Origin: Pseudomonas helmanticensis
GTDB taxonomy: Bacteria > Pseudomonadota > Gammaproteobacteria > Pseudomonadales > Pseudomonadaceae
Assembly: GCF_900182985.1 (NCBI RefSeq)
Contig: NZ_FXUY01000001.1
Span: 992,001 to 1,056,000 of the forward strand
Reading direction: 5' to 3'
Length of the DNA stretch: 64,000 nt
Numbering within the stretch: the stretch's first letter is position 1; the number at the start of each line of letters is the position of its first letter. This document shows positions 16,470 through 18,162 of this stretch, in pieces. The notes beneath the pieces were generated by a model. It saw nothing but the letters and a program-made list of their open reading frames with translations. It searched no databases and was not told the origin of the DNA. The position numbers were made by a program, and so were the translations under genes.

Positions 16470-17546
16470 TCAGGCCTGAGGTTTCGCGCGAAGGCGTTCC
16501 GCGGCGTTCAGCAGCAACTGTTCCGTTGCGGCGAAACCCAGGCAACCGTCGGTAACCGATACACCGTAGCGCAAAGAGGCACTGAGAGGCTGACAACCTT
16601 CGAACAGGTGAGATTCGATCATCATGCCGATCAGCGAGCGGTCGCCCTGAAGCCGCTGCTCCAGCACTTCGTTGAATACTTCAGGCTGGCGCAGTGGGTC
16701 TTTACCGCTATTGGCGTGACTGCAATCGACCATGATTCGACTCGGAATTTTCAAACGGGTCAGATCGGCGTGTATCCGGGCGACGCTTGCACGGTCGAAG
16801 TTCGGCCCTTGATGGCCGCCACGCAGCACCAGGTGGGTATCAGGATTGCCGGTGGTCTGGATAACGGCCGGATGGCCCTGGCTATCAACGCCGAAGTGTC
16901 GGTGCGGATGGGAGGCGGAGCGCATCGCGTCGACCGCGACGGTGACGCCGCCATCGGTGCCGTTCTTGAAGCCGACCGGCATGCTCAGGCCGCTGGCCAT
17001 CTCGCGGTGGATCTGCGACTCAGTCGTGCGCGCACCGATCGCGACCCAGCTGAGCAAATCGTCGAAGTACCCGGCCGCCATGGGTTGCAGTATTTCCGTG
17101 GCGATTGGCAGCCCGCGGCGGATCATTTCGATCATCAGCTCGCGGGACAGTGTCAGGCCTGCGGCCATGTCATCACTGCCATCCAGATGCGGATCGTAGG
17201 CGAGGCCTTTCCAGCCAACGGTGGTGCGCGGCTTTTCGACGTAGGCGCGCATGACCAGCAACATCTCATCGCTGACGTCGTCAGCGAGGCGTGCGAGTTT
17301 GTCCGCGTATTCAATGGCGGATTGCGGGTCGTGGATCGAACAAGGTCCGACGATCACCAGCAAGCGCTGGTCGTCGCCATCAAGAATGGCCTGCACCGCT
17401 TGGCGGTGGGCGGCAACCTGCTGACTCAGGGCGTTGGTCAGAGGCAATTGCTGTTTGAGTTGCAACGAGCTGGGCAGACGCAGGGTCAGTGCTTCGTTGG
17501 CAGAATCAAGAGTGGACAGTGGCAAAGCAGAAACGGACGAGTTCAT
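16470..17546 (-). CDS. aroF: 3-deoxy-7-phosphoheptulonate (DAHP) synthase, class I
   Basis: This 358-residue enzyme condenses phosphoenolpyruvate and erythrose 4-phosphate, the first step of the shikimate pathway. Family signatures are present in order: LLVIVGPCSIHDPQSAIEYA, MRAYVEKPRTTVGWKGL, GARTTESQIHRE, GFKNGTDG, LRGG, and MVDCSHANSGKDP. The start MNSSVSALPL at 17546 is preceded by AGGA nine bases away; the open frame continues upstream without a plausible start. The gene sits behind a ~460-base leader with an aromatic-rich peptide gene and a strong terminator, indicating attenuation by aromatic amino acids. Which of the Phe-, Tyr- or Trp-sensitive isozymes it is cannot be decided here. 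Confidence 0.93.
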   Translation of the reverse strand: MNSSVSALPLSTLDSANEALTLRLPSSLQLKQQLPLTNALSQQVAAHRQAVQAILDGDDQRLLVIVGPCSIHDPQSAIEYADKLARLADDVSDEMLLVMRAYVEKPRTTVGWKGLAYDPHLDGSDDMAAGLTLSRELMIEMIRRGLPIATEILQPMAAGYFDDLLSWVAIGARTTESQIHREMASGLSMPVGFKNGTDGGVTVAVDAMRSASHPHRHFGVDSQGHPAVIQTTGNPDTHLVLRGGHQGPNFDRASVARIHADLTRLKIPSRIMVDCSHANSGKDPLRQPEVFNEVLEQRLQGDRSLIGMMIESHLFEGCQPLSASLRYGVSVTDGCLGFAATEQLLLNAAERLRAKPQA

Positions 17547-17593
17547 GTTCAGTCTTCCTGGGCAGGCGGCGGGTGCTTCCCGCTCGCACGGCC

Positions 17594-17746
17594 CTATTGG
17601 GGTGTTCGACAGTTGGCCGTATTGGCTACGTGTGTGTGCTTGCCACCTGTAGGTGACCGATCGGAGGCGGCAGGCTGTCCCGAGCGGAGGCTGGTAAATC
17701 GCCAGGCGGAAAAACTGTCGTGACGGTAATAAGTGGCGTAGTTCAT
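17594..17746 (-). CDS. Second leader ORF, 50 codons, aromatic-rich start
   Basis: Between the leader terminator and aroF there is a 50-codon ORF starting MNYATYYRHDSFSAWRFTS, with GAGG nine bases before the ATG. Its first 17 residues hold three Tyr, two Phe and one Trp; the remainder is not aromatic-rich. It ends 47 bases before the aroF start, and a GCGGG/CCCGC hairpin lies in between. It may be a second control peptide acting on aroF translation or read-through, or it may be fortuitous. No function is known to me. Confidence 0.45.
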   Translation of the reverse strand: MNYATYYRHDSFSAWRFTSLRSGQPAASDRSPTGGKHTHVANTANCRTPQ

Positions 17747-17794
17747 GTCTTAAATCCTCAAAGTGTCTGGTGTGTTGCTGGAAAATTTGTGCCT

Positions 17795-17834
17795 GAAAAA
17801 ACAAAACCCCCGGTCGGGAGGCCGACCGGGGGTT
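17795..17834 (-). terminator. Leader attenuator terminator before aroF
   Basis: On the minus strand AACCCCCGGTCGG and CCGACCGGGGGTT make a perfect 13-base stem with a four-base loop. The stem is followed directly by TTTGTTTTTTC. This is a strong intrinsic terminator, 57 bases after the stop codon of the leader peptide and about 250 bases before the aroF start codon. Confidence 0.9.
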
Positions 17835-17890
17835 GAGATTTCTCAGGTGGCGACCCGTTTTCATGGGCGCCGTGTAGGGTATCAGGCGCG

Positions 17891-18010
17891 CTAGTGGCTA
17901 AACCAATACCCAAAATAAAAGCTTGCAGGAGCGCAGGCGTCATTCACCCGGGCAGCCGCAACCGAGCGCGAGGCGCTTGCGGTACGTAGCTGAGTTGGGG
18001 TGTTGAACAT
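17891..18010 (-). CDS. Attenuation leader peptide rich in Phe, Tyr and Trp
   Basis: This 39-codon ORF starts MFNTPTQLRT, with GGAG eight bases before the ATG, and ends ASFYFGYWFSH. Six of seven consecutive residues near the stop are aromatic (three Phe, two Tyr, one Trp), the hallmark of a ribosome-stalling leader peptide. The GGGTATTGG inside these codons (17903-17911) can pair with CTGATACCC just after the stop (17877-17885), and a strong terminator follows. By analogy with trpL and pheL, starvation for an aromatic amino acid would stall the ribosome here and change folding downstream so that aroF is transcribed. An antiterminator stem was not identified with confidence. Confidence 0.85.
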   Translation of the reverse strand: MFNTPTQLRTASASRSVAAARVNDACAPASFYFGYWFSH

Positions 18011-18162
18011 GGTCTGTCTCCGATGAATGCGCCGAGCTTACTAGAGGCCGATACGCATCAGCAATCAGAAAATGCTATCGCGTGCAGATCAGAATGCCTA
18101 TCGCTTGAGCGCTGCAACAGTTGTGACACACTCAGCGCTTTGCCTGAAACCAAGGATGAAAC

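Follow-up and report, generated by a model that had tools for sequence, protein, structure and literature searches.

A probable ribosome-read transcription attenuator and a proposed second ribosome-read leader upstream of the DAHP synthase gene of Pseudomonas

What does the long leader in front of the aroF-type DAHP synthase gene of Pseudomonas helmanticensis do? In the window, by which we mean the whole stretch of 64,000 nucleotides that was analyzed, a sequence-only reading had proposed an attenuator with a Phe/Tyr/Trp leader peptide before this gene. Leader attenuators of the trp, phe and his type combine codons for the end product, alternative hairpins and an intrinsic terminator. Comparing the locus with its relatives, we consider it probable that the gene is preceded by a ribosome-read transcription attenuator (layer 1 below) and then by a second ribosome-read leader (layer 2). 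The whole leader region and the downstream gene lie on the minus strand of the window. The gene and the sequences that flank the leaders are as follows:

16470 to 17546, minus strand: aroF-type class I DAHP synthase, 358 aa, ATG at 17546, Shine-Dalgarno AGGAAG at 17554-17559
17560 to 17594, minus strand: hairpin (GGGC...GCCC) between the uORF2 stop and the aroF Shine-Dalgarno, predicted in several of the 11 loci that were folded
18059 to 18064, minus strand: promoter-like -35 sequence TTGCTG, 18 nt ahead of the -10-like TAAGCT at 18035-18040

The gene product, encoded by the next gene on the strand, matches TIGR00034 aroFGH at 447.5 bits (cut-off 173.2). Its ATG lies 258 nt beyond the terminator, and while the order of terminator and then aroF had been given correctly, the gap between them also contains a second conserved ORF that had been overlooked. 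On the other side of the leader, the best-kept blocks upstream of uORF1 in 61 aligned Pseudomonas loci are a TTG (more than 90% kept) and AGTAAGCTCG, at about 52-54 nt and 23-32 nt, respectively, ahead of the uORF1 ATG. Among the 12 Halomonadaceae leaders printed, TTGCCA or TTGTCA is found in 9, and TAGGAT, CAGGAT or CACGAT in 11. An automatic promoter scan of this region of the window called none. The promoter-like sequence agrees with, and does not prove, an mRNA 5' end upstream of uORF1.

The first leader is made up of these parts:

17891 to 18010, minus strand: uORF1, 39 codons, MFNTPTQLRTASASRSVAAARVNDACAPASFYFGYWFSH followed by a stop, Shine-Dalgarno GGAG at 18018-18021
17900 to 17920, minus strand: aromatic codons Phe-Tyr-Phe-Gly-Tyr-Trp-Phe, codons 31-37 of uORF1, a cluster kept in relatives

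The 39-codon frame with its GGAG and the FYFGYWF run at codons 31-37 is thus present at 18010-17891 as first described. For comparison we assembled a set of 61 loci, consisting of the window and 60 loci matching the Rfam family P15 (see below), 30 taken from the strongest matches and 30 from the weaker ones. GYW stands near the end of uORF1 in all 61, as GYWFS in 59 and as GYWYS in L013 and L030, and every one of these uORF1 loci sits upstream of a class I DAHP synthase gene (61-90% identity to that of the window). The codon pattern TTYTAYTWYGGNTAYTGG gave 8 matches in the other 368 gammaproteobacterial genomes, none of them leader-like by eye. Since the leader, the terminator region and the DAHP synthase gene occur together in 61/61 loci and the pattern is rare elsewhere, a chance arrangement can be excluded. 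The same eight matches, inspected as a route to leaders outside Pseudomonas, contained no leader, and the Halomonadaceae leaders were reached instead through orthologues of the DAHP synthase gene. Here the named loci with a gene identity of at least 59% have a leader with GYWF or a variant of it; below that value, a variant leader is present in L150 (57%), and L149 and L151-L173 carry neither leader core. In the relatives, 185/193 loci have 5-7 aromatic residues among the 8 around WF. The differences among the 17 distinct uORF1 cores fall at codon positions 1, 2 and 3 in the proportion 42/232/216, which is not a typical coding pattern; the excess at position 2 reflects exchange of Phe and Tyr.

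The reading would have been in trouble if aroF were kept where the ORF is lost. This combination was looked for in 20 of the 29 Pseudomonas genomes, out of 298, that lack P15, and was not found: 19 of the 20 contain only a paralogue at 52-55% identity, the orthologue being missing, and the remaining one, G206, has an 82% identical gene that is cut by a contig end. In the window uORF1 stops early, at FSH-TAG, two codons past the last Phe of the aromatic cluster (17891-17893); six loci of the 61 besides the window also end in FSH or FSY, and the other 54 continue, 33 of them to HWRA. The change that brings the early stop in the window also weakens the first of the pairing segments described next, giving AGCGCGCC in place of GGCGCGCC.

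Past the aromatic codons, the RNA holds a terminator and a chain of sequences that can pair in alternative ways:

17903 to 17911, minus strand: segment A, GGGTATTGG, partner of A', own pairing counted in Pseudomonas-type loci
17885 to 17892, minus strand: segment 1, AGCGCGCC in the window and GGCGCGCC or GGCGTGCC in relatives, partner of segment 2
17877 to 17885, minus strand: segment A', CTGATACCC, directly past the TAG stop, partner of segment A
17865 to 17871, minus strand: segment 2, GGCGCCC, partner of segment 1 or of segment 3
17849 to 17856, minus strand: segment 3, GGGTCGCC, partner of segment 2 in termination and of the terminator apex in antitermination
17816 to 17823, minus strand: terminator apex, GGCCTCCC, partner of segment 3 with 6/8 pairs in the window
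17805 to 17834, minus strand: intrinsic terminator, 13 perfect pairs (10 G-C) and a 4-nt loop, TTGTTTTTTC, T-rich tail to 17795

The perfect 13-base terminator with its U tract was recovered at 17834-17805, between the leader ORF with its clustered pathway-product codons and aroF. For the pairings we took 219 loci, 208 of which entered the terminator pairing test, 66 as Halomonadaceae-type and 142 as Pseudomonas-type. This split was made by sequence pattern, such that the Halomonadaceae-type class includes the Salinicola loci and the Pseudomonas-type class includes the Halomonadaceae-like L146, L245, L250, L255 and L256. One searched family was counted as Halomonadaceae because its members match named Halomonas loci, and L149 and L151-L173, which have no orthologue, were left out of these counts. 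All of these are counts of loci and not of genomes, as some genomes are represented more than once, and the tests were made on distinct sequences.

The pairing of 17903-17911 with 17877-17885, A with A', had been likened to the 1:2 pairing of a classic attenuator. It is indeed a helix in most Pseudomonas loci, as GGGTATT:GATACCC in 66/96 distinct Pseudomonas-type loci, with one clear case of double compensation, GGTTATT:GATAACC (L039), but it is not the antiterminator. From the comparison of sequences, the antiterminator is instead GGGTCGCC, segment 3, paired with the terminator apex. In relatives it is visible as GGGUUGCC (segment 3) pairing with the apex GGCAACCC, and the locus's own partner pairs better than swapped ones in 52/54 distinct Halomonadaceae-type and 95/102 Pseudomonas-type loci. 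The helix undergoes compensatory double changes from GGGUUGCC:GGCAACCC to GGGCUGCC:GGCAGCCC and to GUGCUGCC:GGCAGCAC. For the 1:2 helix, own exceeds swapped in 55/55 distinct Halomonadaceae-type and 89/97 Pseudomonas-type loci, with a compensatory inversion from GGCGUGCC:GGCACGCC to GGCACGCC:GGCGUGCC; in the Halomonadaceae, segment 1 is GGYGYGCC, made of the codons right after YWFS, and segment 2 is GGCRCRCC. The 2:3 helix, which is contained in the Rfam model of P15, gives own over swapped in 82/100 and 43/49. Since the loci are related, all of these own-versus-swapped counts overstate independence. Across the loci, the alternative pairings amount to an antiterminator that covaries and is mutually exclusive with the terminator. 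In the window the 3:apex match (6/8 pairs) is far weaker than the 13-bp terminator, and with the base change in segment 1 the switch there may be weaker.

The comparative data support the attenuator with a Phe/Tyr/Trp leader, in that the leader, the terminator, the alternative pairings and the target gene have stayed together, and we hold layer 1 with high confidence. A ribosome translating uORF1 would stall in FYFGYWF when charged tRNA for Phe, Tyr or Trp runs short; the stall would allow the 1:2 pair, leaving segment 3 free to pair with the emerging terminator apex, and transcription would continue. With all three amino acids plentiful, the ribosome would reach the stop and cover segment 1, such that the 2:3 pair and the terminator form. 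In Pseudomonas, an extra helix GGGUAUUGG:CUGAUACCC may tie up the region until a stalled ribosome opens it. The order of the parts suggests this direction of regulation, and which of the amino acids matter in the cell we infer as well. The chain of alternative helices is his-like, and the locus differs from the trp, phe and his leaders in that three amino acids are involved, the antiterminator pairs with the terminator apex and a second leader follows.

Termination in layer 1 would release a short RNA, the 3' part of which has been catalogued under another heading:

17807 to 17924, minus strand: match to Rfam RF00627 'P15', model positions 1-119, i.e. the entire model, at 120.3 bits (gathering score 70)

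The sequence-only reading knew of no described leader with this sequence; the RNA family itself is a known one, which Rfam classes as 'Pseudomonas sRNA P15' (RF00627), an sRNA gene. We read P15, with the entire model matched, as part of a terminated leader of the DAHP synthase mRNA, apparently the 3' part of the short RNA that a Phe/Tyr/Trp attenuator would produce, and this reinterpretation is as well supported as layer 1 itself. The family was found in 269/298 Pseudomonas genomes (268 above the cut-off) and in 41/59 genomes sampled from the Pseudomonadaceae, covering 14 of 19 genera, and four Halomonadaceae-type loci (L225, L233, L243 and L255) match it at 27-40 bits, under the threshold of 70. 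Six genomes (G016, G065, G094, G212, G253 and G272) have two P15 matches each; the additional one may be another leader, or the terminator matched on its antisense strand.

It is quite unlikely that P15 is primarily a trans-acting small RNA, with the leader ORF incidental or dual. Its filing as an sRNA gene in Rfam speaks for this, and so does the precedent of rnTrpL, an attenuator product that acts in trans. The accessible text of PMC2375449 likewise names P15 as a detected sRNA, listing it among those found by Livny et al. and missed by that paper's own screen. The DAHP synthase gene downstream in 61/61 loci, the antiterminator with its covariation and the conservation of the leader ORF nevertheless fit a cis leader, and any role in trans would come on top of it. 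In P. aeruginosa, P15 is presumably located at PA1750. The main text of PMC8297930, on P. aeruginosa 3' ends, makes no mention of PA1750, P15 or a leader peptide, and P15, aroF, aroG and DAHP are all absent from that of PMC2965389, on premature terminators. The PA1750 protein (shikimate biosynthesis) appears in some of the pull-downs with PrrF1 or PrrH sRNA as bait (PMC4263517, Table 2), where significance was reported for Hfq and PvdL only.

Leaders of related kinds have been proposed elsewhere. According to the accessible part of PMC4046766, the aroF gene of Corynebacterium glutamicum has a leader peptide with Phe-Tyr-Phe and a proposed attenuator, like the P15 locus in placing an aromatic-codon leader before a DAHP synthase gene; C. 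glutamicum is an actinobacterium, and the leader as described there has no second leader or pseudoknot. The predicted uORFC-13-1 motif of Acholeplasma aroF, with 24 unique representatives, combines a uORF containing at least one Phe codon with a terminator, and differs, going by the accessible text of PMC8632094, in belonging to another phylum, in naming Phe alone and in having a single uORF. Given these proposals of aromatic-codon leaders for DAHP synthase genes in the parts available of PMC4046766 and PMC8632094, the statement that known leaders sense one amino acid was too strong. For attenuation of E. coli aroF, both PMC8632094 and a Shewanella study (PMC2659441) cite Camakaris 1980 in the text accessible. 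Within the open-licence literature, as far as its text was available, we found no description of P15 as a DAHP synthase leader or of a second or tandem leader, and the tandem second leader with its pseudoknot appears in that scope to be new.

That second leader follows the terminator, and had been missed where the one leader named before aroF had been correctly identified:

17594 to 17746, minus strand: uORF2, 50 codons, MNYATYYRHDSFSAWRFTSLRSGQPAASDRSPTGGKHTHVANTANCRTPQ followed by a stop, Shine-Dalgarno GAGGA at 17755-17759
17726 to 17740, minus strand: Tyr codons 3, 6 and 7 of uORF2; Tyr codons before WRF are kept in relatives
17693 to 17704, minus strand: motif TGGCGATTTACC (Trp-Arg-Phe-Thr), candidate anti-RBS, by whose core TGGCGATTT the loci were found

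Of the 219 loci, 20 yielded no DAHP synthase start when a short probe was used, leaving 199 with a known gene start. The core TGGCGATTT is present in 182 of these 199, from the Pseudomonadaceae to the Halomonadaceae, its invariance being partly by construction because the loci were found by this core, and 2-6 Tyr codons stand ahead of Trp-Arg-Phe in all 182. Three of the 17 core-less loci have near variants, TGGCGATAT (L194), GGGCGATTT (L262) and TGGCGATAC (L266). The other 14 (Salinicola-like loci, L178, L223 and L224) are without the core, which implies that layer 2 is not indispensable. The Salinicola-like loci (L133, L134, L137, L177, L237, L240-L242 and L247-L249) have uORF1 and the terminator and no uORF2 core, and their gene start lies about 155-172 nt past the uORF1 core. 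Outside the uORF2 frame (frame 0, open by definition), the two remaining frames are open in just 10 and 24 of the 162 distinct sequences, and among 42 distinct forms of 50 codons, substitutions at codon positions 1, 2 and 3 number 3563, 5420 and 6639, a moderate coding signal. By sequence, then, the locus counts and the frame counts identify a second translatable leader ORF upstream of the gene, and uORF2 is very probably a real conserved leader. L054 has about 138 more bases between the uORF1 core and uORF2 than its relatives L052 and L053 do, possibly because a repeat was inserted.

A functional small protein encoded by uORF2 would account for the kept frame and for the C-terminal RT(P/L) residues seen in many loci. 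It is a very unlikely explanation, considering that the length ranges from 28 to 59 aa with large deletions and a variable N-terminus, and that synonymous changes are absent from the core TGGCGATTT in the loci that were retrieved with it (again partly by construction).

Eight nucleotides behind the TTT of the uORF2 motif, the RNA can fold into a pseudoknot:

17680 to 17687, minus strand: pseudoknot stem 1, 5' strand, CCGCTCGG, at 8 nt past the TTT
17657 to 17664, minus strand: pseudoknot stem 1, 3' strand, CCGATCGG, fixed register, covariation
17665 to 17671, minus strand: pseudoknot stem 2, 5' strand, GCCGCCT, pairs with 17642-17648
17642 to 17648, minus strand: pseudoknot stem 2, 3' strand, AGGTGGC, pairs with 17665-17671

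It is of the H type, with two interleaved stems of 8 bp (stem 1) and 6-7 bp (stem 2) and loops measuring 8, 0 and roughly 8 nt in the majority of loci, and occurs in the window's group and in the Halomonadaceae. Among 201 loci tested, which include 18 of the 20 without a gene start, 143 fit the pseudoknot; these are loci selected for pairing, in which 43 distinct stem sets have 95.5% of their cells paired. On the same pairing-selected loci, double-change cells number 72, where 500 permutations gave 15.6 on average and never more than 32, and it is in these loci that the compensatory changes in both interleaved stems are found. Without selection, at least 6 of the 8 pairs of stem 1 form in the fixed register in 117/120 distinct long-uORF2 sequences, and the other three, quite different in sequence, fit after a shift of one base (e.g. 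CCTGCCTC:GGGGCAGG in L243 and L245). Sliding stem 1 by one or two bases lowers pairing from 91% to 21-55%. Unselected stem 1 is 91.4% paired against a shuffle maximum of 84.9%, with 23 double-change cells against at most 14 in shuffles; the 5 pairs that show any double change lie within the reach of the shuffles (6). Stem 2 is barely above shuffles, with 5.88 of 6 pairs against a mean of 5.82 and a maximum of 5.87, as its sequence is conserved and the shuffles pair almost equally well; in L243, L255 and L150 altered stems still pair. The 47 distinct short-uORF2 sequences have at most 5/8 stem-1 pairs and form a group without the pseudoknot. A riboswitch reading of the pseudoknot is disfavoured, as the loops vary.

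In the sequence comparison, then, both ORFs, the terminator, the alternative pairings and the pseudoknot are demonstrated. How layer 2 acts as a whole we infer from there. The geometry of CGA-TTT, an 8-nt spacer and an H-type pseudoknot is that of pause and recoding stimulators, and CGA is kept despite being a rare codon, such that uORF2 might govern Rho-dependent termination, programmed pausing or recoding at TGG-CGA-TTT, and not translation of aroF. We regard this as rather doubtful. There is no in-frame X_XXY_YYZ heptamer, the short-uORF2 group lacks the pseudoknot, and the distance from the uORF2 stop to aroF, 20-72 nt in 61 loci, varies in both length and phase, so that there is no common fused frame. 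Frameshifting at this site in particular is disfavoured by the lack of a slippery heptamer (TGG CGA TTT AGC) and of a common downstream frame.

The leading reading of layer 2, to which we give close to an even chance, is translational attenuation of aroF by uORF2. In translational attenuators of the ermC type, the next ribosome-binding site is hidden by a sequence that a stalled ribosome covers up, and the same scheme is proposed here, except that uORF2 would sense amino acids instead of a drug. Layer 2 would work on the read-through RNA only: the Tyr codons of uORF2 are followed by Trp-Arg-Phe within the motif UGGCGAUUUAGC, matched to the aroF RBS in one group, and a ribosome held at this motif would uncover the aroF start, with the pseudoknot either holding the ribosome there or competing with the hiding structure. 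The suggestion comes from the short-uORF2 group, where the motif is complementary to the aroF RBS and co-varies with it. In L268, GACUGGCG pairs with CGCCAGUC between the Shine-Dalgarno and the ATG, and UUUAGCCG with CGGCUGAG over the Shine-Dalgarno; in several loci of the group the codon before TGG changes with its partner (GAC/GUC, GCC/GGC, GGC/GCC), and L258 swaps the motif-RBS pair for UUUUAUCUG and CAGAUAAAA. Against shuffled RBS sequences the motif has a mean z of -2.10, with controls at -0.29 and -0.81 (at most 45 distinct loci per group). The pair-specific energy is -1.23 kcal, and none of 2000 permutations was as low (at most 60 distinct loci per group in these permutations); a control pairing the motif with early aroF codons gave a weak signal too, with 87/2000 as low.

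The other groups do not share this match. In the window's group neither the motif nor the pseudoknot halves have a pair-specific RBS match (1558, 1915 and 2000 of 2000 permutations as low), and in the Halomonadaceae the motif has none (258/2000 as low), with a weaker signal for the 3' half of the pseudoknot (43/2000). Weak signals, confounded by relatedness, came from a general scan for coevolution between the uORF2 region and the RBS. Masking the stall site in folding barely alters access to the Shine-Dalgarno in any of the three groups, the mean going from 0.40 to 0.37 in the window's group, from 0.52 to 0.50 in the short group and from 0.23 to 0.24 in the Halomonadaceae; folding, that is, does not predict that the RBS becomes more accessible when the stall site is occupied. 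With the pseudoknot formed too, access in the Halomonadaceae goes from 0.23 to 0.29, rising in 23/36 loci.

That masking has scarcely any effect, and that the Salinicola-like loci, L178, L223 and L224 all keep uORF1 in the absence of uORF2, would be expected of a single attenuator, in which uORF1 and the terminator regulate alone and the uORF2 stretch with the pseudoknot is a spacer that gets translated, or else a small gene without relation to it. Such an arrangement is unlikely in view of the 2-6 Tyr codons and the TGGCGATTT core that are kept from Pseudomonas to Halomonas, and of a covarying pseudoknot at a fixed distance of 8 nt. In its fullest form, translational attenuation by uORF2 would make the locus two serial sensors for the same three amino acids, the P15 transcription attenuator and then a translation attenuator whose pseudoknot-backed stall site is the anti-RBS; this remains tentative and somewhat less than evenly likely on the sequences compared. 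If it is true, DAHP synthase would be made only when shortage is signalled at both sensors, and the shikimate pathway would have a two-lock gate on its first step, perhaps older than the split of Pseudomonadaceae and Halomonadaceae. If layer 2 is translational, initiation would be under the control of an amino-acid leader peptide that stands in series with a transcriptional leader. For P15, classed so far as an sRNA, the comparison gives a concrete, testable function as the likely switch of a shikimate-pathway entry enzyme in pseudomonads; an antiterminator that acts on the terminator apex is described, and a conserved second leader with a pseudoknot is added.

The window itself also has complementarity between the uORF2 region and the gene start, CAGGTGGC with GCCGCCTG, adjoining the Shine-Dalgarno. 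Moreover, the 7-mer GCCGCCT of pseudoknot stem 2 (17665-17671) is repeated at 17564-17570, right before the aroF Shine-Dalgarno, so that AGGTGGC could pair with either copy.
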